Positions 13,961 to 59,567 of a stretch of DNA of 64,000 nucleotides are shown piece after piece; positions within the stretch are counted from its first letter, which is position 1; each line of letters starts with the position of its first letter. Origin of the DNA: Mucilaginibacter sp. (GTDB lineage Bacteria > Bacteroidota > Bacteroidia > Sphingobacteriales > Sphingobacteriaceae). The position numbers and the translations under genes were made by a program. Under the pieces are notes generated by a model that saw only the letters and a list, made by a program, of their open reading frames with translations, was not told the DNA's origin and searched no databases. The stretch lies in assembly GCF_028288185.1 (NCBI RefSeq), contig NZ_JAQBOF010000004.1, positions 62,001-126,000 of the forward strand. Reading direction: 5' to 3'.

Positions 13961-13978
13961 TACGAATACGCATTTACC

Positions 13979-16900: not shown

Positions 16901-17308
16901 AGATATTTCACAAAGGCTATTGAAGGTTTAGATGAGCCATCGGCAGCTATCTTTTATAACGACCAGCAGCCCGACAAAATATTTTACCAGGGATTAGCCT
17001 GGAAAAAACTGGGCAATGCCGATAAAGCAAAGCAAATATTTAACAAGCTGGTTGCGTTTGGTATAAAGCACTTAAATGACAAAGTTAAAATTGATTACTT
17101 CGCTGTGTCATTACCCAACCTGCTGATTTTTGATGATGATTTGGATATCCGCAACAAAGCACATTGCCTGTACATACAAGGTTTAGGGTTTTTAGGGCTT
17201 GAGCAATTTGATGAAGCAAGCAATGCATTTACAGAAGTATTAAAACTGGATGCCGAACATTTTGGGGCCGGCCTGCATTTAAAGATGGTTGCACTAAGAT
17301 CTGTATGA
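13979..17308 (+). CDS. DUF5107 domain protein with C-terminal TPR repeats
   Basis: An 1109-residue protein without a signal peptide. Residues 1 to about 350 form a DUF5107 domain (a galactose-mutarotase-like beta-sandwich, with LPELGGRIQMAYDKIRER, SGGIEFNWPQHHRPST and WTWGHSDFGQAWDRNLTDE). From about 440 onward there are many tetratricopeptide repeats, visible as recurring A-x3-Y/F-A and LG-x-A patterns such as YYNLGLALKYQGNHTGAYDAF and YYLGYFQYQLGNKALAIDLL. The biochemical role of DUF5107-TPR proteins is not known to me. They recur in Bacteroidota glycan operons, and the fold suggests sugar binding or epimerisation on a protein-interaction scaffold. Last gene of the AraC-controlled rightward operon. 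Confidence 0.82.
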   Translation: MNDLYVNIWEEKVTIPTYGIGKPDKNPMFFEKRIYQGSSGKVYPNPIVEKIYDEKEDKEYIGLFLENKYIKIMILPELGGRIQMAYDKIRERHFIYYNQVIKPALVGLTGPWISGGIEFNWPQHHRPSTFEPVDYKIEENSNGSKTIWINEVERMFHTKGMAGFTLYPDKAYIEIKAKLYNRSTLPQTFLWWANPAVKVNDDYQSVFPPDVNAVFDHGKRDVSTFPIATGTYYKVDYSPGTDISRYKNIPVPTSYMAINSAYDFVGGYEHDTQAGLLHVANHHVSPGKKQWTWGHSDFGQAWDRNLTDEDGPYIELMTGMFTDNQPDFSWLMPNEEKHFTQYFLPYRELGVVKNASKDILLALDYEDGIINLKIYVTGEQKSLKIKLSYEGKTLLEEVTDIVPEQVYTKNIKAANIHENRLLLTITSPQGKQLIKYDPASTQLNNTPEAAKPALLPHEVENTEQLFLTGQHLEQYRHATYSPVPYYEEALRRDAKDIRNNNALGTWYLRRGQFAKSEPYFRKAIETSIQRNPNPYDSECYYNLGLALKYQGNHTGAYDAFYKATWSNAWKDSGYFMVAQLDIINQDYELALDHIQSAIDRNANNSKAYVLKSAAYRKVNNLADAIATAKEALKRDQFNLGALFELSLANQQSDESQQAKIHLDELLKLSRGWYQNFIEYALDYANTGLYPEAYELLQHAITGDETNPMVYYYLGYFQYQLGNKALAIDLLKKVAEADPYLCFPDRLEDIAVLKLASQLNIADAKAPYYLGNLWYDKRQYDDAIAAWETSANLDDTFPTVLRNLAIAYFNKRNEQDKAVVYFEKAFALDKTDARILMELDQLYKRLNRTPADRLKLLEDNITTTIERDDIYLERAAIYNFLGDHEKALKLISDRQFHPWEGGEGKASGQYVYSLVEIAREKRNNKEFEAAITLLQKAQVYPHNLGEGKLFGAAENDIFYWIGCAYEGLNQPEQAKRYFTKAIEGLDEPSAAIFYNDQQPDKIFYQGLAWKKLGNADKAKQIFNKLVAFGIKHLNDKVKIDYFAVSLPNLLIFDDDLDIRNKAHCLYIQGLGFLGLEQFDEASNAFTEVLKLDAEHFGAGLHLKMVALRSV

Positions 17309-17329
17309 TTTATGCTAAACCTGTAAGTA

Positions 17330-17454
17330 TGCTGTTTCCTTACACAGGGCAGACACATTAAAATACTTTGACGGTTTTTACCCTCTCTTTGCTGCGCATA
17401 AAGAGGGCGGAGAAGGGTTTTATATTTTTAATGCAATTGCGCTGTTTCCTTACA
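17330..17454. repeat. 96-bp hairpin-bearing segment flanked by 14-bp direct repeats
   Basis: GCTGTTTCCTTACA occurs at 17331 to 17344 and again, identical, at 17441 to 17454. The segment between contains an imperfect hairpin (CCCTCTCTTT ... AAAGAGGG with GGAGAAGGG after it) that may terminate the preceding operon. Identical flanks could be an insertion duplication or a chance of short-range duplication. No coding capacity. Confidence 0.4.
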
Positions 17455-17499
17455 GCCTGCTTACAAAACCCTGCTCCAATTTTTATATTTTAGCGGCCT

Positions 17500-18117
17500 A
17501 TGGAAGCAGCTACCCTATCTAAATACAGGAAACTATTAAAACGAAGCACGGGTCACTATAAAGCATTTCTTTACGATTGCGATGGGACGTTGGCCGATAA
17601 TATGCAGGCGCATGCCGACACTTATGTACAGGTAGCGGCAGATAAAGGTGTAACCATTACGGGCGAGATCATTGATGAGTTTGCCGGATTGCCAATAACT
17701 GCCGTGGTATTAGAGATCAATAAGCGATACAACACCAATTTTGATCCTGACGAGTTTAACGCGTTAAAAAACAAATTATACCATGATGAGTACATCAGCC
17801 GGATATTACCGGTTGAGCATGTGGTTGAACATTTAAAAGCTCACGCGGGTAAAGTACGCATCGCTGTTGTTTCGGGCGGATCGCGCGAGGCGATAGAAAA
17901 AACGTTGAATGTATTGGGCATTGCTCACCTGGTTGAAACGCTGGTTTGCGCGGGCGAAACACCTCATGGTAAACCATACCCCGATCCGTTTTTAGCCGCC
18001 GCCGAAAAATTGGGTGTTGAGCCTAAAGACTGCCTGGTATTTGAAGATGGTAACCCGGGCGTACAATCGGCTATTGCGGCTGGTATGGATTGGGTACGTA
18101 TAGATATGCTGGATTAA
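17500..18117 (+). CDS. HAD family hydrolase (beta-phosphoglucomutase-like)
   Basis: A 205-residue haloacid dehalogenase superfamily phosphatase or mutase of the beta-phosphoglucomutase/GS1-like subgroup. Motif I is FLYDCDGTLADN with D26 as nucleophile and D28 as acid/base. The helical cap carries a sugar-phosphate-type pattern (AGLPITAVVLEINKRYNTNF). Motif II is VVSGGSREAI, motif III K155-like in GKPYPDPFLAA, and motif IV VFEDGNPGVQSAIAAGM. It probably removes phosphate from a small sugar phosphate in the cytoplasm. It lies 190 bp after the galactoside operon, so it may be transcribed separately, and its 3' end overlaps the convergent GntR gene by 4 bp. Confidence 0.88.
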   Translation: MEAATLSKYRKLLKRSTGHYKAFLYDCDGTLADNMQAHADTYVQVAADKGVTITGEIIDEFAGLPITAVVLEINKRYNTNFDPDEFNALKNKLYHDEYISRILPVEHVVEHLKAHAGKVRIAVVSGGSREAIEKTLNVLGIAHLVETLVCAGETPHGKPYPDPFLAAAEKLGVEPKDCLVFEDGNPGVQSAIAAGMDWVRIDMLD

Positions 18118-18830
18118 AAACTATCCTGTAAAAAATGGTCCTCGGTATTGCAATATAAAGACGAGTAAATATTAAGGCCCTTAACGTTGGTTTGCAAGCA
18201 GCGTTTCATGTGTACTACCGGGTGCGTTGTTTTTATATTAAGAAGGCTGCTAATGGTTTTATCAGCAAGTATGGCCCATATTTTTTGCTCGCCCTCTTTT
18301 ACTTCGATGTTATAATGCTCTTTTAATACTTTAAACAACGATCGATTCTCTAAACTCCGTGACGAAAAACGGGGCAGATCAATATTAGTTATGTGAGTTT
18401 CCTCATATAAAACCGGAATGTTATTAATATATCTTAAACGCGAAAAGAAGATACAGCCGGCTTTAATTGCATTTTCATCCAAATGATAAAAAAAGTTTGA
18501 AGGCCAGTCTTTTTTAATAGGCTTATCTAATATAGTAGTAATTAATTTTTGACCACCAATTCCGGCCGTTACACCACTTACAGATAATATTCCTAAACCT
18601 GTTTTAGGTTCAGAAACTATGCTGCCTTTGCCATGCCTGCGGGTAATATAGCCCATATTGGCCAATGACGAAAGCGCTTGCCGTATAGTTACGCGGGTGG
18701 TATCGTATGATTTACAAAGATCGTTTTCTGAGGGGAGCAGGTCGCCTTTTTTATAATCACCTTTTTCAATCGAAAACTTAAGATCTTCGATTACTTTTTT
18801 ATATAAATGGATTATTTCTTTCTTGCTCAT
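18114..18830 (-). CDS. GntR family regulator with UTRA domain
   Basis: A 238-residue HutC-subfamily GntR regulator. Residues 1 to about 75 are the winged helix (KGDLLPSENDLCKSYDTTRV, then TIRQALSSLANMGYITRRHG). Residues 90 to 235 form the UTRA effector domain (AGCIFFSRLRYINNIPVLYEETHI). It diverges from the GH92-aldolase-kinase operon. The intergenic region holds a perfect palindrome CTTGTATATACAAG of the HutC-type form GTxTAxAC overlapping the -33 of the operon promoter, so it is most likely the local repressor, released by a phosphorylated sugar intermediate. Effector is not known. Confidence 0.92.
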   Translation of the reverse strand: MSKKEIIHLYKKVIEDLKFSIEKGDYKKGDLLPSENDLCKSYDTTRVTIRQALSSLANMGYITRRHGKGSIVSEPKTGLGILSVSGVTAGIGGQKLITTILDKPIKKDWPSNFFYHLDENAIKAGCIFFSRLRYINNIPVLYEETHITNIDLPRFSSRSLENRSLFKVLKEHYNIEVKEGEQKIWAILADKTISSLLNIKTTHPVVHMKRCLQTNVKGLNIYSSLYCNTEDHFLQDSF

Positions 18831-18914: not shown

Positions 18915-18946
18915 CTTGTATATACAAGATAACTTTTTTATGTTTG
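18915..18946 (+). promoter_or_regulatory. Promoter of the GH92-aldolase operon with overlapping GntR operator
   Basis: TATGTTTG (18939 to 18946) matches the TAnnTTTG -7 element. The -33 region (TTG at 18916) lies inside the perfect 14-bp palindrome CTTGTATATACAAG (18915 to 18928), which contains GTATATAC, the HutC-type GntR half-site arrangement. A repressor bound here would block the promoter 56 bp before the GH92 start. Confidence 0.6.
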
Positions 18947-19001: not shown

Positions 19002-21257
19002 ATGCCGATCAACAAGCAAAAAAAAATTATTACCATCATATTTTGTTTGGTTGTTAGCAACCTGTTTGCCCAGGAGAAAAGCTTGCTAAAATACGTTGAT
19101 CCTTATGTCGGCACTGCACCAAGTACCACTATATCTGCGGGAAAACATGGCGCCGGTACGGAGCAACGTGCCAATACCATACCTGCGGTAGGTGTGCCGT
19201 TTGGTATGACCCAATGGGTAGCGCAAACCCAGCGTTTAGAAACAAAATGTGTGCCGCCATACATTTACCAAGATAAAACCATCAGCGGATTTAGAGGCAC
19301 CCATTGGTTAAGTGGTTCTTGCGTGCCCGATTATGGCAGCTTTACCATTATGCCGCTTATAGGCAAACTAAAAACAGCCAATACAGAAGTCGTAGCTCAC
19401 TTTGAGCATGCTGATGAAATAAGCCGGCCCGATTATTATAAAGTAGAATTTTCAAACAATCAACTGGTTACAGAGATCGCGGCAACTTCACGGTGTTCCA
19501 TTATGCAATTTACAGCCGCCGCTGCTGATAGCCTTTACTTATTGGTTACGCCCAATAGCGATAAGGCTAAAGCGCATGTTTTTGTTAATAAGGCTGCTAA
19601 TGAAATTTCGGGTTATAACCCTTCCTATCGTATTTACGTGGGCTCGGGCAAGCCTGCCGGCTTTAGCGGGTATTTTGTAATAAAAGTTGAAAGAAAATCG
19701 AATACCGGCGGCGTTTATAGCGGCGCTAATCTGTTTGCTTTAGATAGCATTGCCGATAAAAAAGATATAGGCGCTTACTTAGGGTTTAAAGTTGCCCAAG
19801 GCGAGGTTTTACGTGTAAAAATAGGCACATCATTTACCAGCATTGCCGAAGCGCGCAAAAACCTGGAAGCCGAAATACCCAATTGGGATTTTAACGGTGT
19901 AAGAACTAAAGCAACTGCCGCTTGGGAGAAAGCGTTAAACAAGATCCAGGTTACAGATACCAGCGAGATAAGCAAACATATTTTTTATACGGCCCTGTAC
20001 CATAGCCAGTTGATGCCACGGTTATATAATGATGTTGACGGTACCTATCCCCAGTTTGCTCACCAGTATAAAACCGCCAAATTATCCCCCGGAAAAAATT
20101 ATTATGATGATATGTCCATGTGGGATATATACCGTGCAGAGCTGCCTTTGTTGGAGATCATCCAGCCGAAACTGGTAAGTAATATTGTTCATTCGTTAAT
20201 ATTAAAAGGGCAGCAAGGTGGGTGGATCCCTATATTCCCAATTTGGAACAGCTACACCAGCGCCATGATCGGCGATCATACAGGTCCGTTTATATCATCG
20301 GCTTATTTAAAAGGCATTGCCAATTATGATGTGAAGGAAGCTTATTGCTTACTACGCCAAAATGCTTTTGAAACGCCGCCCAAAGCAGATTATGAGGAAG
20401 GAAAAGGCAGGCGCGCGCTTGATTCATATCTAAAATACGGTTACATCCCGTTAGAAGATCCGGTAAATAATGCGCCGCATAGTAAAGAGCAGGTATCACG
20501 TACATTGGAGTATGCTTATGACGATTACGCGCTGGCTATGCTGGCTAAATCATTAGGCCATACCGCAGATTATAAACAACTGCTTGCAAGATCTAAAAAC
20601 TATAAAAACGTGATAGATCCCGTTACCGGTCTGGCTCGTGCCAAACATGCTGATGGCAGTTGGATCACCCCGTTCTATCCGGACAAAAAAGTTCCCTACA
20701 TAACTGAAGGAACCCCACGGCAATATACTTTCTACGTCCCGCAGGATGTTGCAGGGCTTACCCAAATACTAGGCGGAAAAGATAAACTGGAAAGCGCCCT
20801 GGATAGCATCTTTATAAAAGACGAATACTGGCACGGTAACGAGCCTGGGCACCAAACCCCGTACATGTACAATTTCACCAATGCGCCATGGAAAACCCAG
20901 CAGATAGTGGCCAAAGTGCGTAGCGAGGAATATACAGACGGTCCCGGTGGTTTAAGTGGCAATGATGATTCGGGGCAGATGAGCGCCTGGTACGTATTTG
21001 CAGCATTGGGCTTTTACCCGGTCGATCCGGTGTCTGATAATTACCAGCTGGGTACACCGCTTTTTAAACAGGCGGTAATCAATATGGAGAATGGTAAAAA
21101 ATTTGTTATCAACACAACAAAAAGCACATCATCAGCTTTATATATCAAATCCATTGCATTAAATGGTGTAAAGTATAAGTTAAACACTATATCTTACAGG
21201 GCTATTGCAAGCGGTGGCCGTATGGATATTTTTTTATCAGACAAACACGCTAAATAA
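19002..21257 (+). CDS. GH92 alpha-mannosidase
   Basis: A 751-residue secreted GH92 enzyme (signal peptide to about residue 24, LFAQ), calcium-dependent exo-acting alpha-mannosidase family. Landmarks are LLKYVDPYVGTAP, VGVPFGMTQW, GFRGTHWLSGSCVPDYG, YDDMSMWDIYRAELPLLEI, GNEPGHQTPYMYNF and GNDDSGQMSAWYVF, the last carrying the conserved acidic pair. It is distinct from the GH92 at the left edge: its operon encodes sugar-phosphate metabolism rather than uptake. The released sugar is presumably mannose or a close relative, which suits the D-lyxose/mannose isomerase-like protein three genes downstream. Confidence 0.92.
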   Translation: MPINKQKKIITIIFCLVVSNLFAQEKSLLKYVDPYVGTAPSTTISAGKHGAGTEQRANTIPAVGVPFGMTQWVAQTQRLETKCVPPYIYQDKTISGFRGTHWLSGSCVPDYGSFTIMPLIGKLKTANTEVVAHFEHADEISRPDYYKVEFSNNQLVTEIAATSRCSIMQFTAAAADSLYLLVTPNSDKAKAHVFVNKAANEISGYNPSYRIYVGSGKPAGFSGYFVIKVERKSNTGGVYSGANLFALDSIADKKDIGAYLGFKVAQGEVLRVKIGTSFTSIAEARKNLEAEIPNWDFNGVRTKATAAWEKALNKIQVTDTSEISKHIFYTALYHSQLMPRLYNDVDGTYPQFAHQYKTAKLSPGKNYYDDMSMWDIYRAELPLLEIIQPKLVSNIVHSLILKGQQGGWIPIFPIWNSYTSAMIGDHTGPFISSAYLKGIANYDVKEAYCLLRQNAFETPPKADYEEGKGRRALDSYLKYGYIPLEDPVNNAPHSKEQVSRTLEYAYDDYALAMLAKSLGHTADYKQLLARSKNYKNVIDPVTGLARAKHADGSWITPFYPDKKVPYITEGTPRQYTFYVPQDVAGLTQILGGKDKLESALDSIFIKDEYWHGNEPGHQTPYMYNFTNAPWKTQQIVAKVRSEEYTDGPGGLSGNDDSGQMSAWYVFAALGFYPVDPVSDNYQLGTPLFKQAVINMENGKKFVINTTKSTSSALYIKSIALNGVKYKLNTISYRAIASGGRMDIFLSDKHAK

Positions 21258-21311
21258 CCTAAAAACAACATTCAATTAGTACATAACGTTACAAATACAC
21301 TTTTTATAAAA

Positions 21312-22145
21312 ATGAAGTCATATAGATTAAATAGATTATTTAATGGCAAATCAGGCAATTGCTTTGATGTAGCCATTGACCACGGATTCTTTAATGAATA
21401 CCCGTTTCTAAACGGAATAGAAAATATCCAGAAAGCGGTTGACGTATTGGTAAATGCCGCGCCCGATGCTATACAGTTAACTATCGGCCAGGCGCAATAT
21501 TTACAGTCTATCCCGGGCCGCCATAAACCATCATTGGTTTTGCGTACCGATGTTGCCAACGTTTACGGTAAAGACCTGCCCCGCGCTTTGTTTAGCCGGA
21601 TGATAGAGAACCCGGTAGAGCAAGCCTTGCGCTTAGATGCCACCTGTGTAGTGGTAAACTTATTCAGCATCCCCGGCGAGCCTGAGGTTGCCGATCAATG
21701 CATCCAAAATATCCTTAAAATAAAACCGGTGTGCGAGCGATATGCTATGCCGTTAATGATAGAGCCATTGGTGTTTCGCCCAAATACAGAAGCGGGGGGC
21801 TATATGGTAAATGGCGATCCTGAAAAGATAATCCCGTTGGTAAGACAAGGCGTTGAGTTAGGTGCAGACATTATAAAGGCCGACCCGACTGATGATGTTA
21901 CCCAATATCACCGCATTGTGGAGATAGCCGGAAATATCCCTGTATTGGTGCGTGGGGGCGGTAAAGCCAGCGACCAAGAAATTATGGAACGCACCTATGG
22001 CCTGATGCAGCAAGGCGTTAAAGGCATTGTGTACGGCCGCAACGTTATACAGCACGCTAACCCGGCCGGTATGACTAAGGCGCTTATGGCATTGGTACAC
22101 GAAGGCGCACGCCCTGCCGATGTAATGCATTTATTGAATAGTTAA
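21312..22145 (+). CDS. Class I aldolase, DhnA/FbaB/LsrF-like
   Basis: A 277-residue TIM-barrel aldolase of the DhnA-type class I fructose-bisphosphate aldolase/LsrF superfamily. Recognisable parts are FDVAIDHGFF (D23-H24), the Schiff-base lysine K189 in ADIIKADPTDD, and the phosphate-binding loop VLVRGGGKAS (211 to 220) followed by GIVYGRNV. By context it should cleave a ketose 1-phosphate or bisphosphate made by the PfkB kinase in this operon into two three-carbon (or similar) fragments. Members also include thiolase-like LsrF, so the exact reaction is inference. Second gene of the operon, 54 bp after GH92. Confidence 0.85.
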   Translation: MKSYRLNRLFNGKSGNCFDVAIDHGFFNEYPFLNGIENIQKAVDVLVNAAPDAIQLTIGQAQYLQSIPGRHKPSLVLRTDVANVYGKDLPRALFSRMIENPVEQALRLDATCVVVNLFSIPGEPEVADQCIQNILKIKPVCERYAMPLMIEPLVFRPNTEAGGYMVNGDPEKIIPLVRQGVELGADIIKADPTDDVTQYHRIVEIAGNIPVLVRGGGKASDQEIMERTYGLMQQGVKGIVYGRNVIQHANPAGMTKALMALVHEGARPADVMHLLNS

Positions 22146-22163
22146 GGCAATTATAAATAACAA

Positions 22164-23312
22164 ATGAAGACAATTAACATAGGAATTATCGGCGGTGGCC
22201 TGATGGGCAAAGAAGCGGCAAGCGCTTTTGGCCGCTGGTTCGCGTTGAATGATTTCCCGGCGAAGGTTGAGTTGAAAGCGGTTTGCGATTTGAATGAGCA
22301 AGTATTAGCCTGGTACAAAAATATCCCTACTGTTGATCTGCTGACCACCAATTATAAAGAACTGCTGGAGCGCGCGGATATTGACATTGTATACGTAGCA
22401 TTGCCACATAATTTGCATAAAGATTTTTATATCGAAGTGTTAGAAGCAGGTAAAGATCTGCTTGCCGAGAAACCTTTCGGCATAGATCTGGAAGCTGCAT
22501 TGGCTATTAGAGATAAAGCAGAACAGTTGGGCCGCTTTGTAAGGTGCAGCTCTGAAATGCCTTTTTTGCCTGGTCCACAACGTGTGATACAGGAGGTGAA
22601 GTCTGGCAGGATAGGAGAGATCATAGATATCAAAGCAGGCTTTTTACACTCGAGCGATTTGGATTTTAACAAACCTATCAATTGGAAAAGACAAGTTAAA
22701 TTTTGCGGTGAGATAGGCGTAATGGGCGATCTGGGTATGCACGTATTACACGTTCCTTTACGTTTAGGCTGGAAACCCGAAACCGTTTATGCAAACCTGC
22801 AGAAAATAGTTACCCAACGCCCAGATGGTAAAGGCGGCATGGCCGTTTGCGATACCTGGAATAATGCAACGTTAAATACACAGGTTACTATAGATGGTAA
22901 CCTGGTGCCGATGCTTTTAGAAATGAAACGCATTGCACCGGGCGAAACCAATACCTGGTATATAGAGATCTTCGGTACCAAAGGTGGCGTAAAATATAGC
23001 ACCAAGGATACCAAAGCTCTTTGGACATTTGCCATTGGCGAAGAGCAATATTGGCAGCGTACGGACCTTGGTTTTAAAGGCGTGCCGTTCCCGACTATTA
23101 CGGGCGGCATTTTTGAGCCGGGCTTTGCAGATTGCTTTATGCAGATGCTGGCCGGTTATGTAGCCGAGCGCGAAGGGTTTTTAAATGATCGCTTTGGTTG
23201 CGTAACGCCTGATGAGGCCGTTAACAGCCATTATGTATTCGAGGCGGCGCTAAAATCATTTGCTAATAGTTCGGTAGAAAAAGTGAATTATCACCAGGAA
23301 GAACCGGTATGA
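22164..23312 (+). CDS. Gfo/Idh/MocA family oxidoreductase
   Basis: A 382-residue NAD(P)-dependent oxidoreductase. The Rossmann domain opens with NIGIIGGGLMGKEAASAFG (residues 4 to 22), followed by VYVALPHNLHKDFYIE and the conserved LAEKPFGIDLEAA motif with the catalytic-region Lys-Pro. The C-terminal alpha/beta domain has GVMGDLGMHVLHVPLRL, where the D-x-x-x-H pair (GDLGMH) is typical. It probably oxidises or reduces a sugar, inositol-like compound or keto-sugar intermediate in the cytoplasm. It overlaps the isomerase gene by 4 bp (ATGA), so coupling to the pathway is strong even though the substrate is unknown. Confidence 0.88.
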   Translation: MKTINIGIIGGGLMGKEAASAFGRWFALNDFPAKVELKAVCDLNEQVLAWYKNIPTVDLLTTNYKELLERADIDIVYVALPHNLHKDFYIEVLEAGKDLLAEKPFGIDLEAALAIRDKAEQLGRFVRCSSEMPFLPGPQRVIQEVKSGRIGEIIDIKAGFLHSSDLDFNKPINWKRQVKFCGEIGVMGDLGMHVLHVPLRLGWKPETVYANLQKIVTQRPDGKGGMAVCDTWNNATLNTQVTIDGNLVPMLLEMKRIAPGETNTWYIEIFGTKGGVKYSTKDTKALWTFAIGEEQYWQRTDLGFKGVPFPTITGGIFEPGFADCFMQMLAGYVAEREGFLNDRFGCVTPDEAVNSHYVFEAALKSFANSSVEKVNYHQEEPV

Positions 23313-23881
23313 AAAGATCAGAAATAAACCATGCAATAGTTGCCTCAGGAGTCTTTTTTAGACAAAATAAATGGGCGCTGCCTCCACAACCAAAATGGGA
23401 TGTGACCGATTTTGGCCTGGGCAATTTTAAAAAATACGGACTGATACTAATCAACCTGGCCGAAGAAGCCGAGTATTGCGAAAAGCTAATGTATGCGGCA
23501 AAAGGGCAAACTACCCCAGCGCACACGCATAAAAAAAAGAAAGAAGATATTATTTGCCGTACCGGCGAGCTGGTTATTCATTTATGGAAACAAAATCCTG
23601 CTGATATAGAATCAAACGGAACTTTCGAAATGAAAGTTAATGGCGAATATCAAACCATAAAATCGGGCGCTGTACTTCACCTTCAAGCCGGCGAACGGAT
23701 AACCATCGAACCCGGTATCTGGCATGAATTTTACCCGGCTACAGACGAATGTATAATCGGCGAGGTATCAACCGCTAATGATGACCTGAATGACAATTTT
23801 TTCTCGAACCCCGATATTGGCCGCTACGCCGAAATTGAGGAGGATGAAGCACCCATAGTAAAGTTACTAAGCGATAAATAG
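23309..23881 (+). CDS. D-lyxose ketol-isomerase family protein (cupin)
   Basis: A 190-residue cupin of the D-lyxose isomerase family, which converts D-lyxose to D-xylulose and D-mannose to D-fructose. The metal-binding set is visible: H72 and H74 in AHTHKKKKED, E79, and H139 in PGIWHEFYP. The spacing (0, 2, 7, 67) agrees closely with that recalled for the characterised E. coli enzyme. With a mannosidase at the start of the operon, mannose to fructose is the simplest reading, but related aldoses are equally possible. Translationally coupled to the Gfo/Idh gene and 3 bp before the kinase gene. Confidence 0.87.
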   Translation: MKRSEINHAIVASGVFFRQNKWALPPQPKWDVTDFGLGNFKKYGLILINLAEEAEYCEKLMYAAKGQTTPAHTHKKKKEDIICRTGELVIHLWKQNPADIESNGTFEMKVNGEYQTIKSGAVLHLQAGERITIEPGIWHEFYPATDECIIGEVSTANDDLNDNFFSNPDIGRYAEIEEDEAPIVKLLSDK

Positions 23882-23884
23882 GCG

Positions 23885-24904
23885 ATGAGGAACGGCATTT
23901 TAGTTGGCGGCAACTGGATAGTTGACCAGGTAAAAGTGATAGACGTTTTCCCGGAAGAAGAGAAACTGGTAAACATTTTATCAGAGAGTAGCTGTAACGG
24001 CGGCTCGGCTTATAATGTAATTATGGGGCTCTCAAAACTTCAAGCCGGTTTCCCGTTAAGCGGGGTAGGCTTGGTTGGCGAAGATGATAGGGGTAATCAC
24101 ATTATACGCCATTGCCAAAGCATAGGTATAAACACTATGCAGTTGCGTAAAACCAATAAAGCCTATACATCATACACCGATGTAATGAGCGTTAAAGGTA
24201 CCGGTAAACGCACTTTCTTTCATCAGCGTGGAGCAAACGCTTTACTGGATATTGCTGATTTTGATTTTACTGCTTCGCAGGATAAAATATTTCATTTGGG
24301 GTATTTGCTGTTGCTTGACCAACTGGATATTATAGAGGCAGATGGCACTACCCGCGCATCAAAAGTGTTAAAAAACGCTAAGCAGCAAGGCTTGATCACT
24401 TCGGTAGATATTGTAAGCGAACGCTCTGACCGTTTTAAAGCTATTATCCCATCATCATTGCCTTATATCGATTATTTGTTTGTTAACGAGTATGAGGCCG
24501 GAATGATAACCGGGATAAAAACCATATCCGCCGATGGCGGAATAATTTTAAAAAGCTGTTATGATGCCGCTTTAAAAATTATAGACATGGGCGTAAACAA
24601 ATGGGTGATCCTGCATTTCCCACAGGGAGTTATCGCTATTGGCAGCGATGGCGAGTCGCATTACCAGCCAAGTCTGCAGATTCCGGCAGATCAGATCAAA
24701 GGTGCATCAGGTGCCGGTGATGCGTTTGCGGCAGGCGTATTAATTGGCGTGCATAATAACTGGGACATGGAAAAATGCCTGGAACTGGGCGTTTGCTCGG
24801 CAGCATCCAGTTTATTTGAATCAACTTCGTCTGACGGCATACTTCCATTAAACGAATGCCTTAAATTAGCAGACGCTTTTGGTTATAAAGAAAAAGCTAA
24901 CTAA
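23885..24904 (+). CDS. PfkB family carbohydrate kinase
   Basis: A 339-residue ribokinase/PfkB-fold sugar kinase. The N-terminal glycine pair region reads SSCNGGSAYNVIMGLSKL and the ATP/anion-hole signature is KGASGAGDAFAAGV with catalytic base D279. It should phosphorylate the ketose produced by the upstream isomerase, giving the substrate of the class I aldolase. Which hydroxyl is phosphorylated (1 or 6) cannot be read from sequence. It lies between the isomerase (3-bp gap) and the FAD/FeS dehydrogenase (15-bp gap) in the GntR-controlled operon. Confidence 0.9.
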   Translation: MRNGILVGGNWIVDQVKVIDVFPEEEKLVNILSESSCNGGSAYNVIMGLSKLQAGFPLSGVGLVGEDDRGNHIIRHCQSIGINTMQLRKTNKAYTSYTDVMSVKGTGKRTFFHQRGANALLDIADFDFTASQDKIFHLGYLLLLDQLDIIEADGTTRASKVLKNAKQQGLITSVDIVSERSDRFKAIIPSSLPYIDYLFVNEYEAGMITGIKTISADGGIILKSCYDAALKIIDMGVNKWVILHFPQGVIAIGSDGESHYQPSLQIPADQIKGASGAGDAFAAGVLIGVHNNWDMEKCLELGVCSAASSLFESTSSDGILPLNECLKLADAFGYKEKAN

Positions 24905-24919
24905 AATCCATCTTTAAAA

Positions 24920-27766
24920 GTGGCGCATTCAAACATTGGCAAATTACTGGAAGCGATATTACCCGCTGATAGGATAAAGACAAATCTTATTGATCTGGTT
25001 GCGTCTGCCTCTGATGCCGGATTTTATTATTTGCGCCCGCAGGCCGTGGTGCTTCCTGTATCAGAGGATGAGGTTATTAAATTATTCGCGTTTTCTAAAC
25101 AACATAAAATTCCGTTGGTTTTCCGTACCGCCGGTACTAGTCTATCCGGGCAATCAATTACGGATGGTATATTGGTTGATCTGAGCCAGCATTGGAATAA
25201 GATTACTATCGAAAACGATGGCCAGTCCGTAAGGGTAAGGCCGGGCGCTATTGGGGCCAATGTAAATACTTATCTTAAAAAATATCAGCGTAAAATAGGC
25301 CCTGACCCGGCAAGCATTAATGCCGCTATGATGGGTGGTATTATCTCAAACAATGCCAGCGGCATGTGCTGCGGGGTTAGTAAAAACTCATACCATACTA
25401 CCAAATACCTGCGCTTTATATTGCCTAACGGCAAAACGTTTAGTACCGAGTCGCCCATAGATTACGAACGGTTTCAAACAGAATGCGCGGATCTGTACGA
25501 TCATCTTAAACTCCTTCGCCTGCAAATATTAAACAACCCCGAAGTTTACGATAAGATCCGAAAGAAATATCAAACTAAAAACACGGTCGGCTACTCAGTA
25601 AACGCTTTTATTGATTACGAGGAGCCAATGGATATCCTGGCCCACTTGCTAATTGGTGCCGAGGGTACATTAGGTTTTATAGCAGAGGCGGTATTAGAAA
25701 CGGTAAACGACTATCCCGAGAAATTAACAGCGATGCTGTATTTCACGGATATCTATTCGGCTTGTAAAGCCATTACGCCGCTAACCACATCAGGCGCGGC
25801 AGCGGTCGAGTTGATGGATAGGGCATCATTGCAGTCCATCGAAAATATAGAGGGCATGCCTGCCATTATAAAAACCCTGCCTGAAAATGCTGCCGCGTTA
25901 TTGGTAGAATACCAAGGCAATACGCAGGACGAATTGAAAGAGCAAATGGCAGATTTCCTCACTATAGCTGACGATCTTTCTCTATTGCAAAAAGCCGAAT
26001 TTACAGCGGGGCCTTATGAACAAGCCTTGTTTTGGAAAGTACGTAAAGGCATGTTCCCGGCGGTTGGCGCGGTTAGGGCCAGCGGCACATCGGTGATTTT
26101 GGAAGATATAGCTTTCCCTGTTGATAGCCTGGGCGATGCTATATCTGATCTGCAACTACTGTTTAAAAAACACGGCTATACACGCGCCATTATTTTTGGC
26201 CATGCTAAAGATGGCAATATCCACTTTGTAGTAACCCAGGCATTTGATACATCTGCCGAAGTGGAACGTTATCGCGTTTTCCTGCAAGATGTTGTTGACT
26301 TGGTGGTCAAAAAATATAACGGCGCTTTAAAAGCCGAACACGGTACGGGCCGCAATATGGCGCCCTTTGTTGAAACAGAATGGGGCGGCGAAATCTACCG
26401 GGTGATGAAAACCGTAAAGGAAATTATCGACCCTGAAAACCTGCTTAACCCCGGGGTAATCATAAATGCCGATAAAAACGCCCACATAAAAAACCTGAAA
26501 GAACTGCCGCAGGTTGAAGAGGAAGTTGACCGTTGTATTGAATGTGGTTTTTGCGAACATAAATGCCCTAGCCGCGATATTACGCTTACTCCACGCAAAC
26601 GCATTGTTGTGCGCCGCGAGTTGCTTAACTTGAAAAACAAAGGTAACAAGGCACAGCACGATGAATTGCTGCATCAATATCAATACCAAGGCTTGGATAC
26701 CTGCGCGGTTGATGGCCTATGCGCTACCGCCTGCCCGGTTGACATTAATACCGGCGACCTGGTAAAACGGTTGCGGCGGGAAAACCATTCATCAACGGAA
26801 AATAAATTGGCGCTGTTTACGGCTAAGAATTTTAAAAGCGTTTACAAAACAGTAAGGTTCGCGCTGGCATCGGGTATTTTAATAAACAAGGTGTTTGGTC
26901 CGAAGGCTATGTTCAAGCTGACTAAAACTTTGCGCAAAGTTATGCCATCGTTTCCGCTATGGTCAAACCAGTTGGCGTTGGCAAAAGCGGTACCGCGGAG
27001 TGCTGTTAACGAGAATAATACGCAATCGGTAGTATATTTCCCCGCCTGTATATCACGCGCAATGGGCGAGTGCGAATCGGGGCAAAAAGGCGTAATGCAA
27101 ACGTTTATGGATGTATCTGCCAAAGCCGGCATCAATGTAATTATCCCAACCAATATCGAAAAAAACTGTTGCGGACAGATCTATTCATCCAAAGGATTTA
27201 AGGATGCTTATACCTATACTGTTAACGCAACGGTAGATAAACTATGGTTTGATACCAGTAACGGCAAGTTCCCGGTAGTGTTGGATATCAGCTCATGCAC
27301 ACAAACCTTAACCCATTGCCGCCCTGCTTTATCTGAAGAAAATAAAATCAAGTTTGATCAATTACAGATCATCGACAGCATTACCTATATCCATGATTAT
27401 GTAATGCCTAATATATCGGTAACTCAAAAGAAAACCCGCATTACCCTGCACCCGGTATGCTCGCTGCAAAAAATGCCGGGACTGGAAAGCAAGTTCTCCA
27501 AAATCGCCGCCACTTTTGCCACTAACATTAACCAGCCTGTTTTTGCCGGATGCTGCGGTATGGCCGGCGACAGAGGCTTTCTTCATCCCGAACTAACCCA
27601 CTCGGCGACCTTGCCCGAAGCAAATGAAGTAAAAGCCAATACTTACGATGGCTATTATTCGTCATCAAAAACCTGCGAGATAGCCTTATCAGAAGCAGTT
27701 GGCAAGAACTATCATTCTATATTAATGTTAGTTGATGAGTGTACGGGCATAATCAATTTGTCGTAA
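24920..27766 (+). CDS. FAD-linked oxidase fused to FeS/CCG domains (D-lactate dehydrogenase-like)
   Basis: A 948-residue single-chain dehydrogenase with a GTG start. Residues about 35 to 210 form the FAD-binding PCMH domain (VFRTAGTSLSGQSITDGILV, then NNASGMCCGV). About 210 to 535 is the FAD-oxidase C-terminal domain ending with AEHGTGRNMAPFVE. Two 4Fe-4S motifs follow (CIECGFCEHKCPS and CAVDGLCATACPV), then two CCG domains (KNCCGQIYSSKG and GCCGMAGDRG). This is the glycolate oxidase/GlpC-type fusion seen in Dld-like and YdiJ-like proteins. It probably oxidises a 2-hydroxyacid such as D-lactate or D-glycerate derived from the aldolase product and passes electrons to quinone. Last gene of the operon. 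Confidence 0.88.
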   Translation: MAHSNIGKLLEAILPADRIKTNLIDLVASASDAGFYYLRPQAVVLPVSEDEVIKLFAFSKQHKIPLVFRTAGTSLSGQSITDGILVDLSQHWNKITIENDGQSVRVRPGAIGANVNTYLKKYQRKIGPDPASINAAMMGGIISNNASGMCCGVSKNSYHTTKYLRFILPNGKTFSTESPIDYERFQTECADLYDHLKLLRLQILNNPEVYDKIRKKYQTKNTVGYSVNAFIDYEEPMDILAHLLIGAEGTLGFIAEAVLETVNDYPEKLTAMLYFTDIYSACKAITPLTTSGAAAVELMDRASLQSIENIEGMPAIIKTLPENAAALLVEYQGNTQDELKEQMADFLTIADDLSLLQKAEFTAGPYEQALFWKVRKGMFPAVGAVRASGTSVILEDIAFPVDSLGDAISDLQLLFKKHGYTRAIIFGHAKDGNIHFVVTQAFDTSAEVERYRVFLQDVVDLVVKKYNGALKAEHGTGRNMAPFVETEWGGEIYRVMKTVKEIIDPENLLNPGVIINADKNAHIKNLKELPQVEEEVDRCIECGFCEHKCPSRDITLTPRKRIVVRRELLNLKNKGNKAQHDELLHQYQYQGLDTCAVDGLCATACPVDINTGDLVKRLRRENHSSTENKLALFTAKNFKSVYKTVRFALASGILINKVFGPKAMFKLTKTLRKVMPSFPLWSNQLALAKAVPRSAVNENNTQSVVYFPACISRAMGECESGQKGVMQTFMDVSAKAGINVIIPTNIEKNCCGQIYSSKGFKDAYTYTVNATVDKLWFDTSNGKFPVVLDISSCTQTLTHCRPALSEENKIKFDQLQIIDSITYIHDYVMPNISVTQKKTRITLHPVCSLQKMPGLESKFSKIAATFATNINQPVFAGCCGMAGDRGFLHPELTHSATLPEANEVKANTYDGYYSSSKTCEIALSEAVGKNYHSILMLVDECTGIINLS

Positions 27767-28334: not shown

Positions 28335-29015
28335 ATGGCACAGATCTTTTTAGTTGAAGATGAAGAACGGGTAGCTTCTTTTGTAAAAAAGGCGCTCGAA
28401 GAAAACAATCACACGGTAGATATAATTACCGATGGGGCAAGTGCCGTAAAAAAATTCGCCGGCATCCCTTATGACCTGGCTATACTGGATATAATGTTGC
28501 CTTATTTATCGGGTATAGAAGTTTGCCGTCACATCCGTCAAAAAAATAAAAACATCCCCATACTAATGCTTACCGCTTTGGATAGTGTGGATGATAAAGT
28601 AAAAGGGCTAAACATGGGTGCCGATGATTACCTGGTAAAACCGTTCCATTTAAAAGAGCTGCAAGCCAGGGTGGAGGCCTTGTTAAGGCGTAACGCGTCA
28701 GATGTGATACCTATAATTACCTTAGGTAGTATTACCCTTAATACCGCTAACAACATGGTGGAGCGCGAGGGCCGTAAAATATCCCTTACCACAAAAGAGT
28801 GTGCCTTGCTGGAACTGCTTATGCGTAATAACGACAAAATGCTATCGCGCCAAACCATTGCAGAAAAAGTATGGGGAATTGATTTTGACACCGGCACCAA
28901 CGTGGTTGATGTATATGTTAATTACCTGCGTAATAAAATAGAAAAAGGCTTTACCGATAAATATATCCATACCGTAATAGGCAAGGGCTATATTTTTAAA
29001 ACAGAACAGAACTAG
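28335..29015 (+). CDS. OmpR/PhoB family response regulator
   Basis: A 226-residue two-component response regulator. The receiver domain (1 to about 120) has the acidic pair VEDEER, phospho-acceptor D52 in AILDIMLPY, the switch T in LMLTALD and the conserved Lys in YLVKPFH. The C-terminal winged helix (about 128 to 223) ends with YIHTVIGKGYIF. It is immediately followed by a histidine kinase gene and then a CzcCBA-type efflux operon, so it most likely senses metal stress (CusR/CzcR type). Direct repeats with 11-bp period before the efflux genes fit its DNA-binding class. Confidence 0.94.
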   Translation: MAQIFLVEDEERVASFVKKALEENNHTVDIITDGASAVKKFAGIPYDLAILDIMLPYLSGIEVCRHIRQKNKNIPILMLTALDSVDDKVKGLNMGADDYLVKPFHLKELQARVEALLRRNASDVIPIITLGSITLNTANNMVEREGRKISLTTKECALLELLMRNNDKMLSRQTIAEKVWGIDFDTGTNVVDVYVNYLRNKIEKGFTDKYIHTVIGKGYIFKTEQN

Positions 29016-30380
29016 GTGAAAATAAAGGACAGGCTTTCGCTTTACTTTACTTTAATAGGCTCGGGCATATTGCTGGTGGTTATGGTATCGCTTTACATTT
29101 CTGTGTATACCATTGTACATAACGACTTTTACACGCATTTAAACGATAGAGCAAATATTGTGGCCCAGCTTTATCTGAAAGCTGATGAGATCTCTCCCGA
29201 CTCACTAAACAAGGTCCGAAACCGCTTTTTTAAAAGCCTGCATAGCGAAGTAACCCGGATATATGATGACCGTAACAGTGCCGCGTTTATAAAGGACAAT
29301 GAGCAATATTGGGATAGTAAAACCATTGAAGCGGTTAGAAAACGCAACTATTTAGCCTATAGCAACAAAGACAACCAGGTAGTAGGTATTTATTATAAAG
29401 ACAACCAGGGTAATTTTGTTATCCTGGTTTCGGCGATAGACCAGACGGGTAAGCGGCAGCTCGACTCGATACGCGAAGCCATGATTATTGTGTTTTTAAT
29501 AGTAACTGCAACTTTGTTTTTAGTGAGCCGATGGCTGGCGCAGAATACACTTTCGCCTATAAAAAATGTGGTAAAGCAAATGCAGCTCATTAAATCAACC
29601 AATCTGCATTTGCGTGTAAATGAGGGTAAGGGTAAGGACGAGATAAGCGAGCTGGCCAATAACTTTAACCGCTTGTTGGAACATCTGGAAAACGCTTTCG
29701 AACTGCAAAGAACCTACGTTGCCAATGCTTCGCATGAGTTACGTACACCCGTAACCAGTATTATTGGCGAAGTAGAATTGGCACTTAATAAAGAGCAAGA
29801 CCCCCAGGAAACTAAAAAAACCCTGCAACTGGTACTGGAAGAGTCTGTAAGGCTGCGCGATACCATATCGGGCTTAATGGAATTGGCCCAGGTGGATATG
29901 GACTATACCATTGCTGAACAGAGCCAGGTAAGGATGGATGAGTTGCTATGGGCCGTGAAGGATTACTGGGTACATAAACCCGGCGCAGGCGTGTTAAAAA
30001 TTAATATTGAACACATGCCCCAAGATGAGTCTATGCTAACAATCCGAGCCAATTACCAGTTACTTTATATCGCTTTAAATAATTTAATTGGCAATGCCTT
30101 TAAATTTTCCAATCAGCAGCCGGTTACGTGTAATTTTTACGCGGATGAATCGCTGATATGGATACAAATTGTAGACTCCGGTATTGGCATACCCGCCGGG
30201 GACCTGGAGATGATTTTCAAATCATTTTACCGCGGTAACAACTCGCATAATTTTGCCGGTAGTGGCATCGGCTTATACGTTACTCAAAAAATTATTCAAC
30301 TATTTAACGGCACACTCCACGCCGAATCTGCCGAGGGCAAGGGCACAAGTATTACTGTAAAATTTACACAAAAAAAGTAA
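29016..30380 (+). CDS. Sensor histidine kinase with HAMP domain
   Basis: A 454-residue inner-membrane sensor kinase starting with GTG directly after the response regulator stop. Layout: TM1 (about 10 to 32), a periplasmic sensor region (about 33 to 153), TM2 (154 to 172), HAMP (to about 225), the dimerisation H-box NASHELRTPVTSI with phospho-acceptor H240, N-box NNLIGNAFKFSN, G1 VDSGIGIPAGD and a GSGIGLYVTQKII lid region. It should phosphorylate the regulator encoded just upstream in response to a periplasmic signal, probably divalent metal ions given the downstream efflux genes. Confidence 0.93.
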   Translation: MKIKDRLSLYFTLIGSGILLVVMVSLYISVYTIVHNDFYTHLNDRANIVAQLYLKADEISPDSLNKVRNRFFKSLHSEVTRIYDDRNSAAFIKDNEQYWDSKTIEAVRKRNYLAYSNKDNQVVGIYYKDNQGNFVILVSAIDQTGKRQLDSIREAMIIVFLIVTATLFLVSRWLAQNTLSPIKNVVKQMQLIKSTNLHLRVNEGKGKDEISELANNFNRLLEHLENAFELQRTYVANASHELRTPVTSIIGEVELALNKEQDPQETKKTLQLVLEESVRLRDTISGLMELAQVDMDYTIAEQSQVRMDELLWAVKDYWVHKPGAGVLKINIEHMPQDESMLTIRANYQLLYIALNNLIGNAFKFSNQQPVTCNFYADESLIWIQIVDSGIGIPAGDLEMIFKSFYRGNNSHNFAGSGIGLYVTQKIIQLFNGTLHAESAEGKGTSITVKFTQKK

Positions 30381-30399
30381 ATTCTAATACCATTCTAAT
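30381..30399 (+). promoter_or_regulatory. Response-regulator box before the efflux operon
   Basis: ATTCTAAT occurs at 30381 to 30388 and 30392 to 30399, an 11-bp period typical of OmpR/PhoB-family tandem binding, located just upstream of the -7 element of the efflux promoter. Likely bound by the response regulator encoded at 28335. Confidence 0.5.
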
Positions 30400-30428
30400 T
30401 TTAGCCGCTCAGGCATAGTTTAATTTTG
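30398..30428 (+). promoter_or_regulatory. Promoter of the metal efflux operon
   Basis: TAATTTTG (30421 to 30428) matches the TAnnTTTG -7 element. The -33 position falls on TTTTAG at the edge of the response-regulator repeats, so activation by a regulator that replaces a poor -33 is plausible. The ATG follows 17 bp later. Confidence 0.5.
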
Positions 30429-30445
30429 GCCCTTTAATATAAACT

Positions 30446-31723: not shown

Positions 31724-31750
31724 CACTAACTATTGATGATAGATATAATA

Positions 31751-32848: not shown

Positions 32849-32853
32849 TTGTG

Positions 32854-32930
32854 AGTTTTGAGTGATGAGTTAAACTTCATTGCTTATCACAAATAAAAAA
32901 CTCAAAACCTATAACTCATTACTCAAAACT
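32854..32930. repeat. Intergenic inverted repeat with 18-bp arms
   Basis: AGTTTTGAGTGATGAGTT (32854 to 32871) is matched by AACTCATTACTCAAAACT (32913 to 32930), inverted with one mismatch that remains a G-U pair in RNA. A further CTCAAAAC copy lies between. It sits in the efflux operon between adaptor and permease and could reduce read-through or be a small dispersed palindromic element. Confidence 0.5.
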
Positions 32931-32933
32931 AAA

Positions 32934-55036: not shown

Positions 55037-55627
55037 TTATGCGTTAAGTTTTTTCAATGTCAGTTCACCATTACCGTCCAATTGAATAAGTGTGATGGCT
55101 GAGTTTTCCTGAAAGATACGACGGTAGTTTTTTAAATGCATTCCTAATTTGTAAGCCATGTACAACCGATTAATGCCGTTATGGCCAACTACCACAATTG
55201 CTTGATCAGCGTGCTTTCGCAGCATATCCTGGTAAAAGGCATCTACACGTTTCACAATCTGATTGCCGGTTTCGCCTGTACGACCCGCGCGGTTCTCGCC
55301 CGGATCATTTGCCCAGGCTTCCCAACTTAATGGGTCATCGGCCGCAAACTCTAATTGTGTTTTACCTTCCCATTCACCAAAATCTATTTCAATAATGCGT
55401 TGGTCTGTCTCTACCTCGCGATCAGTTGCCAGTTCGGCAGTTACGCGTGCGCGTTGCAATGGCGATGAGTAAACAGCATCAATATGTAAACCGGCTAAAC
55501 GCTGATTTACCGCTTTAGCTTGTGCTACACCTATGTCTGTAAGCCCTATATCAGTGCGCCCGCAATAACGGTTACCCTCAGCATTGTATGGCGTTTCACC
55601 GTGGCGTAATAAATAAATGTTAAGCAT
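55037..55627 (-). CDS. Histidine phosphatase family protein
   Basis: A 196-residue phosphatase of the phosphoglycerate-mutase-like branch. The signature LRHGETPYN (R8, H9, G10, E11) holds the phospho-accepting H9; second-half residues are in EIDFGEWEGKTQLEFAADDP and the late His of VVVGHNGINRLYM. Such enzymes dephosphorylate sugar phosphates, alpha-ribazole phosphate or similar small molecules. As the last gene of the operon with two FGGY kinases (8-bp overlap with the kinase gene), it may relieve sugar-phosphate stress or produce a free end product. Confidence 0.9.
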   Translation of the reverse strand: MLNIYLLRHGETPYNAEGNRYCGRTDIGLTDIGVAQAKAVNQRLAGLHIDAVYSSPLQRARVTAELATDREVETDQRIIEIDFGEWEGKTQLEFAADDPLSWEAWANDPGENRAGRTGETGNQIVKRVDAFYQDMLRKHADQAIVVVGHNGINRLYMAYKLGMHLKNYRRIFQENSAITLIQLDGNGELTLKKLNA

Positions 55628-58516: not shown

Positions 58517-58520
58517 TGGT

Positions 58521-59492: not shown

Positions 59493-59567
59493 AGATATGT
59501 ATGATCAATAAAATCCCTGTAACGGGAGTTATGGAAAATTGAATATGTTTTGGTAAACGAACTGGCG

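Follow-up and report, generated by a model that had tools for sequence, protein, structure and literature searches.

A Gfo/Idh, PfkB and class I aldolase gene module with alternative entry enzymes: a candidate sugar route in Mucilaginibacter and its relatives

In the sulfoglycolytic Embden-Meyerhof-Parnas (sulfo-EMP) pathway an isomerase, a PfkB kinase, a class I aldolase and an oxidoreductase (YihS, YihV, YihT and YihU) follow one another, with YihS being an isomerase of the AGE fold. Degradation of autoinducer-2 (AI-2) by LsrK, LsrG and LsrF also begins with a kinase, here of the FGGY family, and leads to an aldolase-fold Schiff-base enzyme that releases dihydroxyacetone phosphate (DHAP). 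The L-fucose and L-rhamnose routes split a 6-deoxyketose-1-phosphate into DHAP and a C3 fragment that ends as lactate, while in myo-inositol catabolism a Gfo/Idh dehydrogenase, a PfkB kinase and an aldolase (IolG, IolC and IolJ) together give DHAP. The NagA/NagB route pairs a deacetylase with a deaminase. Here we compare with these systems a six-gene operon from a 64,000-nucleotide stretch of a Mucilaginibacter sp. genome (4.25 Mb in 40 contigs; contig NZ_JAQBOF010000004.1, positions 62,001 to 126,000), which we call the window.

The six co-directional genes lie on the plus strand at 19002-27766, with intergenic gaps of 54, 18, -4, 3 and 15 bp, next to a divergent GntR-type regulator gene (Table 1). 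They encode a GH92 glycoside hydrolase, an aldolase (ALD), a Gfo/Idh/MocA-family dehydrogenase (GFO), a cupin isomerase (LYX), a sugar kinase (PFKB) and a fused FAD/4Fe-4S dehydrogenase (DLD). An earlier reading of the bare sequence, the original prediction, had proposed this tight arrangement and these gene families; coordinates, gaps and Pfam matches bear it out, and the gap between the GntR gene and the operon also holds a perfect 14-bp palindrome. The isomerise, phosphorylate and cleave logic that it put forward looks plausible from the families involved. Its general idea is thus partly supported, while the operator, the three-gene core and an alternative entry for amino sugars are additions of the present analysis. 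None of the six proteins reaches an NCBIfam equivalog cut-off; the GH92 protein meets the subfamily model TIGR01180 in the same scan.

The comparison draws on the 151 genomes of the window's family and on a wider set, the best 80 of at least 526 confirmed ALD relatives in named genomes, with ALD loci of at least 71% identity. Within these best 80, ALD loci occur in Sphingobacteriaceae, Verrucomicrobia, Fodinibius, Gemmatimonadetes, Abditibacterium and others, and the closest named relatives belong to Mucilaginibacter and Pedobacter. Of the genomes in this wider set, 23 from four phyla (20 recorded as Verrucomicrobia, and L105, L117 and L094) were picked for holding ALD and measure its partners, not its prevalence. 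After 11 duplicate and 3 paralogue loci were dropped, 86 unique loci remained, a count to which the window itself does not belong. Neighbouring genes were called by tblastn together with a codon-position model.

ALD was found in 20 of the 151 family genomes. GFO (E<=1e-100), scored mostly among 13 first-look candidates per genome, accompanies it in 19 of these 20 and occurs in none of the other 131. The 23-genome set contains GFO in all 23 genomes, PFKB in 21, a NagB-like protein in 17 and LYX in 4, and in 15 of the 21 genomes with both GFO and PFKB these two lie on separate contigs. At 42 of the 86 unique loci both are found within 8 kb of ALD. PFKB counts refer to the 23-genome set and the loci. 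Since the partners recur across the 23-genome set, often on different contigs, GFO, PFKB and ALD are likely the core of the pathway even where their genes are scattered. The block is kept across genera and phyla and the palindrome matches exactly in the regulator gap, so that the operon is more than a chance assembly, and its genes almost certainly form one co-functional module.

The original prediction expected the metabolic genes to be co-conserved as a block, with or without GH92. This holds for the core; the isomerase is optional and is replaced elsewhere by the NagB-like gene, usually together with a PIG-L deacetylase gene. Among the 42 loci with GFO and PFKB near ALD, 23 have LYX only, 15 have the NagB-like gene only, one (L081) has both and three have neither; the last three have no more than 4.1 kb of sequence upstream of ALD. 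LYX and the NagB-like module are thus nearly exclusive alternatives that would feed one core. Either LYX or the NagB-like gene occurs in 18 of the family's 20 ALD genomes (exceptions, G026 and G119), and a single NagB-like gene occurs without ALD, in G129 (320 contigs, 92% complete). Close LYX relatives are present in 7 of the 151 family genomes, every one adjoining ALD; two more distant lyxose isomerases sit away from ALD, in G026 and G099.

The nearest solved structure to LYX is 3kmh (E=1.1e-34). Its cupin metal ligands H72, H74, E79 and H139 are invariant in 7 aligned sequences and align with 3kmh, and the relevant part of PMC8378251 gives the same pattern of two His, Glu and His for the D-lyxose isomerase type. 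The score against the NCBIfam equivalog LyManIsomGneg is 132 bits with a cut-off of 350, which, judged by sequence, puts LYX in a divergent, shorter subgroup of the D-lyxose/D-mannose isomerases.

The NagB-like protein is about 310 aa long (for example L053:8234-9163 and L081:7211-8143, with seven more members), and the one member scanned had no Pfam match. A profile of nine members matches glucosamine-6-phosphate deaminases in the PDB (E=3e-6), and Foldseek places an AlphaFold2 model (mean predicted local distance difference test score, pLDDT, 72.5) with the same enzymes (E=2.9e-8; TM-score to target at most 0.78). A PIG-L deacetylase gene lies near in 14 of the 15 NagB-like loci. In E. coli NagB the catalytic residues are D72, D141, H143 and E148, and R172 and K208 bind phosphate. 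D72 and H143 are invariant in all seven sequences of an alignment, the E148 position is E or D, and D141 is replaced by V or I in the six that are NagB-like. This is probably an unrecognised family of amino-sugar deaminases/isomerases. The deacetylase and deaminase-fold pair recalls the NagA/NagB route, but the deacetylase family differs, and the NagB-like family lacks the D141 equivalent and sits with GFO, PFKB and ALD.

Together, PIG-L and the NagB-like protein would turn an N-acetylhexosamine into a ketose. Because this pair would make the same kind of ketose as LYX would, GFO, PFKB and ALD appear as the invariant core, and we think it quite probable that a ketose is formed at entry. GFO accompanies ALD whatever the entry module, and for this reason it most likely acts after ketose formation.

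K189 of ALD, named in the original prediction as its Schiff-base lysine, is shared by all of 15 aligned aldolases and lines up with the Schiff-base lysines of MJ0400 and LsrF. According to the pertinent section of PMC4162585, that of MJ0400 is Lys184, and the crystal holds DHAP on this residue. DHAP release is therefore the family expectation, and there is good reason to regard DHAP as one of the cleavage products. The ALD profile match spans nearly all of MJ0400 and LsrF, and reaches the archaeal fructose-1,6-bisphosphate (FBP) aldolase only at profile positions 129-270. A predicted model of ALD (mean pLDDT 83.7) gives Z values of 31.6 with MJ0400, 30.3 with LsrF, 27.8 with the archaeal FBP aldolase, 23.8 with sulfohexulose-1-phosphate aldolase and 23.2 with YihT. 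Both profile and model show that ALD is closer to MJ0400 and LsrF than to FBP aldolases. Against the LsrF equivalog PRK08227 it scores 108.9 bits (cut-off 297), and against the NCBIfam equivalog Fbpase1_Arch 88.8 bits (cut-off 430).

A class II FBP aldolase (PF01116) is present in 21 of the 23 ALD-bearing genomes, with no match in G159 and G172; the window's own genome is outside this set. ALD is therefore not simply the glycolytic aldolase. We had considered a housekeeping FBP aldolase in view of the many Verrucomicrobia loci that lack GFO and PFKB nearby, and discarded this idea on the class II count and on the presence of GFO in 23 of 23 genomes.

These observations lead us to read the locus, tentatively and with some doubt about the scheme as a whole, as an operon under GntR control that would break down a manno-configured sugar, with GFO acting before cleavage. 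We infer each reaction, the reaction order and the substrate. GH92-type enzymes would free the manno-configured sugar, and LYX would convert the aldose into a ketose. GFO would then oxidise the ketose at C4 of the ketopyranose, two carbons from the anomeric centre, to a 2,4-diketone, and PFKB would phosphorylate it, probably at C1. ALD would form a Schiff base with the ketose-1-phosphate and split it into DHAP and a short fragment ending as a 2-hydroxyacid. This cleavage would be an LsrF-like retro-Claisen reaction leading straight to the acid or to a coenzyme A (CoA) ester, and DLD would oxidise the 2-hydroxyacid into the quinone pool. For the action of GFO before cleavage, taken by itself, the chances seem about balanced.

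In Gfo/Idh enzymes the carbon that is oxidised is often the second one from the anomeric centre, and LsrF cleaves a substrate of the 2,4-diketone type. An acid or CoA ester as the product would make an aldehyde dehydrogenase unneeded, which fits the recurrent 2-hydroxyacid dehydrogenases. The products of LsrF are DHAP and acetyl-CoA, as stated in a portion of PMC7828210.

In its widest form, manno-type aldoses and N-acetylhexosamines would converge on a ketose oxidised at C4 by the Gfo/Idh enzyme, and the retro-Claisen step would give DHAP and a 2-hydroxyacid, or its CoA ester, with no free aldehyde; as a complete statement this is unlikely. A 6-deoxy sugar would yield lactate, mannose glycerate and lyxose glycolate. 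Ordinary mannose needs no such route, and we therefore favour a sugar blocked at C6, such as 6-deoxymannose (D-rhamnose), which would end as D-lactate. That the substrate is a 6-deoxy sugar is possible, if rather doubtful.

DLD is of the 2-hydroxyacid dehydrogenase type, and its PDB matches are LctD, glycolate oxidase and D-lactate dehydrogenase. The lactate specificity implied by the name D-lactate-dehydrogenase-like in the original prediction is not supported: the best NCBIfam model is that of the D-2-hydroxyglutarate dehydrogenase YdiJ (211 versus a cut-off of 1350). DLD relatives lie near 7 of 24 LYX loci (five with at least 70% identity, two weaker), and LutA lies near 4 of the 15 NagB-like loci.

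The scheme shares with AI-2 degradation a kinase followed by an aldolase-fold Schiff-base enzyme that would release DHAP. The operon differs in having PfkB instead of LsrK, an isomerase or deaminase at entry and a Gfo/Idh enzyme instead of LsrG. The L-fucose and L-rhamnose routes are our favoured parallel for the cleavage itself, but the isomerase, kinase and aldolase families of the operon are unrelated to theirs, a Gfo/Idh enzyme is added and no lactaldehyde dehydrogenase is encoded. With myo-inositol catabolism the operon has the Gfo/Idh, PfkB and aldolase combination in common, and PFKB weakly matches the IolC equivalog domain TIGR04382 (65.6 bits, cut-off 300); in contrast, IolD, IolE and IolB are missing and the aldolase is class I, not class II.

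The original prediction also drew a parallel with sulfo-EMP. This is a formal likeness only: the enzyme types would act in the same order, but the isomerase is a PF07385 cupin and not of the AGE fold, the NagB-like protein provides another entry, and ALD, from the same superfamily as YihT, is nearer to MJ0400 and LsrF (Z of 30-32). No GH31 gene was seen among the annotated neighbours. We rejected a sulfoquinovose route as the best reading, given the amino-sugar-type entry with the same core, the different isomerase family and the greater distance of ALD from YihT.

A classical route would do without oxidation by GFO before cleavage. LYX would make the ketose, PFKB the ketose-1-phosphate, and ALD would carry out a retro-aldol cleavage to DHAP and an aldehyde, which would be D-glyceraldehyde if the sugar is mannose, D-lactaldehyde if it is D-rhamnose and glycolaldehyde if it is lyxose. 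Housekeeping enzymes would oxidise the aldehyde, and GFO would act elsewhere or on the aldehyde. This agrees with the original prediction and with known fucose and rhamnose logic, and ketohexokinases are among the solved relatives of PFKB. It also draws on an aldolase paralogue, 51-53% identical to ALD, which adjoins an AldA-like gene in all three paralogue clusters and stands among an FGGY kinase, an iron-type alcohol dehydrogenase and an aldehyde dehydrogenase, so that retro-aldol chemistry fits this aldolase branch.

Of the 97 ALD loci themselves, 12 of them shorter than 8 kb, only L059 has an AldA-like protein, at a distance of about 7 kb; the genomes may carry such genes outside the loci, where no search was made. 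The classical route explains neither this near-absence of aldehyde dehydrogenase nor the strict coupling of ALD with GFO, its most constant partner. Oxidation before or during cleavage therefore fits better than the aldehyde oxidised afterwards that the original prediction proposed, and the classical route is, in our view, rather unlikely.

The paralogue cassette occurs in three loci of genus g4 (L040, L041 and L042), with the aldolase at about 9.6-10.5 kb. Besides the genes just named it encodes a Na+ symporter, a glycerol-phosphate-oxidase-like protein and a protein that weakly matches a GH141 domain (Pfam on one of the three). It looks like a separate, fucose-like deoxysugar route with a class I aldolase and an aldehyde dehydrogenase. 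The Parapedobacter records L052, L053 and L056 represent the same ALD loci as the genus g4 genomes.

GFO could instead belong to glycoside 3-oxidation of the levoglucosan or 3-keto type, upstream of the ketose steps and merely co-regulated with the kinase and aldolase. Levoglucosan dehydrogenase is the NCBIfam model that GFO matches best (104.7 bits against a cut-off of 650). The named proteins closest to GFO resemble levoglucosan and scyllo-inositol dehydrogenases; its first PDB match, 4gqa, bears no specific name. Some clusters contain 3-keto-disaccharide hydrolases, a GMC oxidase and AP_endonuc_2 proteins, and long-type Gfo/Idh genes occur at operator sites. Ten Verrucomicrobia regions around PFKB lend the idea some weight, with a 3-keto-disaccharide-hydrolase-like gene in 4 and a DUF7133-like gene in 3, while these together with ten regions around GFO gave no clue to the substrate. 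Against it, GFO accompanies ALD in operons pared down to four genes and at loci of either entry type, and is also found in Verrucomicrobia genomes whose ALD locus has no match to those oxidation genes. We hold this reading to be quite unlikely.

MJ0400, the nearest fold to ALD, points to another chemistry. In the portion of PMC4162585 that bears on this, MJ0400 is proposed to use 6-deoxy-5-ketofructose-1-phosphate, a compound formed by the archaeal MJ1585 out of methylglyoxal and a DHAP fragment. By analogy, GFO would oxidise C5 of a 6-deoxyketose and the flux would pass through methylglyoxal, which accounts for GFO, D-lactate and the missing aldehyde dehydrogenase. The price is a high flux through toxic methylglyoxal, and no glyoxalase was seen among the annotated neighbours, where no search aimed at glyoxalase was made; this version is improbable.

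D-lyxose isomerases act on mannose, and ordinary mannose salvage, in which LYX makes fructose, PFKB makes fructose-6-phosphate and the other genes are incidental, has the GH92 link and a fructokinase among the solved relatives of PFKB in its favour, yet it leaves ALD and GFO, the most conserved pair, pointless and is very improbable.

Several points weigh against the favoured scheme, with its oxidation at C4 before an LsrF-like cleavage. At as many as 44 of the 86 unique loci, GFO or PFKB is missing from the surroundings of ALD (32 lack both, 12 have GFO only), and G026 carries ALD without GFO. We found no residue in ALD that decides between retro-aldol and retro-Claisen cleavage, and MJ0400 and LsrF are nearly tied as its nearest fold. 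Phosphorylation at C1 is weakly based, as the nearest solved structures to PFKB are YdjH (3.3e-21), adenosine kinase (2e-15) and fructokinase (3.4e-13), with ketohexokinases following from 2.7e-11. DLD and LutABC are absent from most loci, and LutABC is specific for L-lactate whereas the proposed product is D. The NagB-like protein keeps the R172 position and a conserved arginine near K208, so that a substrate free of phosphate is unproved. The GH20 of one locus and the GH130 of another would fit the sugars of ordinary N-glycans no less than a deoxy sugar. The enzyme activities in the scheme are themselves proposed by comparison.

The manno-configured source is linked to the operon through its predicted operator. 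The palindrome, with at most one mismatch and within 2.6 kb upstream of ALD, was found at 21 of 25 LYX loci, at none of the 15 NagB-like loci and at 1 of 46 other loci (L045, whose contig is cut inside GFO). It is missing from all four Verrucomicrobia LYX loci (L073, L081, L106 and L110) as well as from the NagB-like ones, which also counts against the scheme, since the GH92 link is thereby limited to the Bacteroidota LYX branch. On this control we no longer take the operator to mark the pathway as a whole. A GntR match is present at 16 of the 22 loci with a site and absent at 6; L050 and L058 carry the site one gene farther upstream. A GntR relative (at least 55% identity) lies within 8 kb of ALD at 14 of the 24 LYX loci with GFO and PFKB. 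The palindrome is a likely operator, with GntR as the protein predicted to bind it.

The pattern CTTGTRTAYACAAG occurs one to five times in each of 18 whole genomes, with 43 sites in total, and the reversed-pattern control gave none in any of them. Away from ALD lie 25 of the 43 sites: 22 in the tallied regions, the other three in L052 and L056. The tallied regions hold 24 sites, two of them at ALD. At 7 of the other 22, in seven genomes, GH92 is the first gene on one side, and four of these seven have a further GntR gene on the opposite side; a long-type Gfo/Idh gene stands at 5, an MFS transporter gene at 3 and other genes at the rest. Pfam checks covered all seven GH92 genes, one Gfo/Idh and two MFS genes.

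GH92 is abundant in these genomes (238 matches in 18), yet 7 of 22 is far above the random-gene expectation. The P value of 4e-11 is calculated under independence, which does not hold, and, as with all P values here, phylogeny is ignored. The GH92 genes beside sites away from ALD therefore support a manno-configured source for the LYX branch.

In L052, L056, L193, L200, L201, L203 and L205 the palindrome is found ahead of PSCyt-type (DUF1549/DUF1553) genes and of long-type Gfo/Idh (GFO_IDH_MocA_C2) genes as well, which suggests that a sugar-oxidation system belongs to the same regulon. The window's genome has a second operator site (L187:5958-8942, G000:C30), with the end of a myo-inositol oxygenase gene, which follows a Na+ symporter, on one side and a gene for an apparently secreted protein of 667 aa on the other. 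Pfam gave no match for this protein and the PDB none that convinced (best E 0.74); by eye it may resemble GH99/GH71-type proteins.

GH92 is not the fixed lead gene that the original prediction made of it. A GH92 match lies within 12 kb at 8 of the 24 LYX loci with the full core and at none of the 15 NagB-like loci. Two of the eight are short (L048, at the locus edge, and L065, 123 aa), and L057, L060 and L062 derive from close relatives. Within the operon itself GH92 is variable, with no match near it in L046 and L047. In L065 (Mucilaginibacter sp. UR6-11) the match, around position 9541 between GntR and ALD and 75% identical, is possibly a decaying copy of the window's GH92. In Abditibacterium, a cluster at L105:7571-14688 contains a GH38 alpha-mannosidase-type gene, ALD, DUF4432, GFO and a sulfatase, which puts another mannosidase family beside the core.

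Table 1. Operon genes, regulator gene and predicted operator in the window
Feature	Position	Strand	Remarks
GntR/UTRA-type transcriptional regulator	18114..18830	-	Divergent; Pfam GntR 60.8 bits, UTRA 62.2 bits
Predicted operator CTTGTATATACAAG, perfect 14-bp palindrome	18915..18928		Exact match in the GntR/operon gap
GH92 glycoside hydrolase (alpha-mannosidase family), accessory	19002..21257	+	Pfam 539 bits
ALD, DhnA/LsrF-like class I aldolase, likely core	21312..22145	+	Pfam DeoC/LacD aldolase 117 bits; predicted Schiff-base lysine K189
GFO, Gfo/Idh/MocA-family dehydrogenase, likely core	22164..23312	+	Pfam GFO_IDH_MocA 59 bits
LYX, short D-lyxose/D-mannose isomerase-type cupin, putative entry enzyme	23309..23881	+	Pfam Lyx_isomer (PF07385) 176.8 bits, cut-off 20.8
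PFKB, PfkB-family sugar kinase, likely core	23885..24904	+	Pfam PfkB 103 bits
DLD, fused FAD/4Fe-4S 2-hydroxyacid dehydrogenase type, accessory	24920..27766	+	Pfam FAD-oxidase_C 180, FAD_binding_4 115, Fer4_8 40 bits

On the far side of the regulator gene from the operon, at window positions 12614-18117, lie genes for an MFS transporter, a DUF5107-TPR protein and a HAD phosphatase; their order beside the operon is kept in the closest relatives L046, L047 and L065, and they may be part of the same sugar island. Directly 3' of the operon (28335-36071) we noted by eye a two-component system, followed by an outer-membrane efflux protein, a membrane-fusion protein and a heavy-metal-type RND pump. 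On the minus strand at 55037-60836, also by eye, two adjoining sugar-kinase-like genes, a D-2-hydroxyacid-dehydrogenase-like gene, a phosphatase-like gene and an MFS transporter gene are accompanied by a DeoR-like regulator at 61079. From its gene content, this cluster is possibly another sugar or polyol operon.

The module is apparently undescribed so far in the open-access literature. No description of such a route was found in open-access PMC papers (no preprints), which is weak evidence, as most subscription papers lie outside that scope. Among the papers listed in searches of the open-access literature for D-rhamnose catabolism by isomerase and aldolase, lyxose isomerase acting on D-rhamnose, a lyxose route by kinase and aldolase, quinovosamine catabolism, GH92 acting on D-rhamnose and a mannose isomerase and aldolase with GntR in Pedobacter, none was relevant.

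If the proposed function is true, genes so far named after their superfamilies, namely the Gfo/Idh oxidoreductase, the 'aldolase', PfkB, the short lyxose isomerase and the Pfam-less NagB-like protein, would gain a joint role. A regulon would be defined together with its operator, glycan harvest by GH92 would be tied to an intracellular route, and the four-enzyme pathway would be directly testable. Oxidation at C4 followed by retro-Claisen cleavage would be a sugar counterpart of AI-2 degradation, spread over Bacteroidota, Verrucomicrobiota, Balneolota, Gemmatimonadota and Abditibacteriota. For soil and freshwater Bacteroidota and Verrucomicrobiota, it would offer a rationale for the recycling of unusual manno-sugars and amino sugars, perhaps including deoxysugars of bacterial surfaces.

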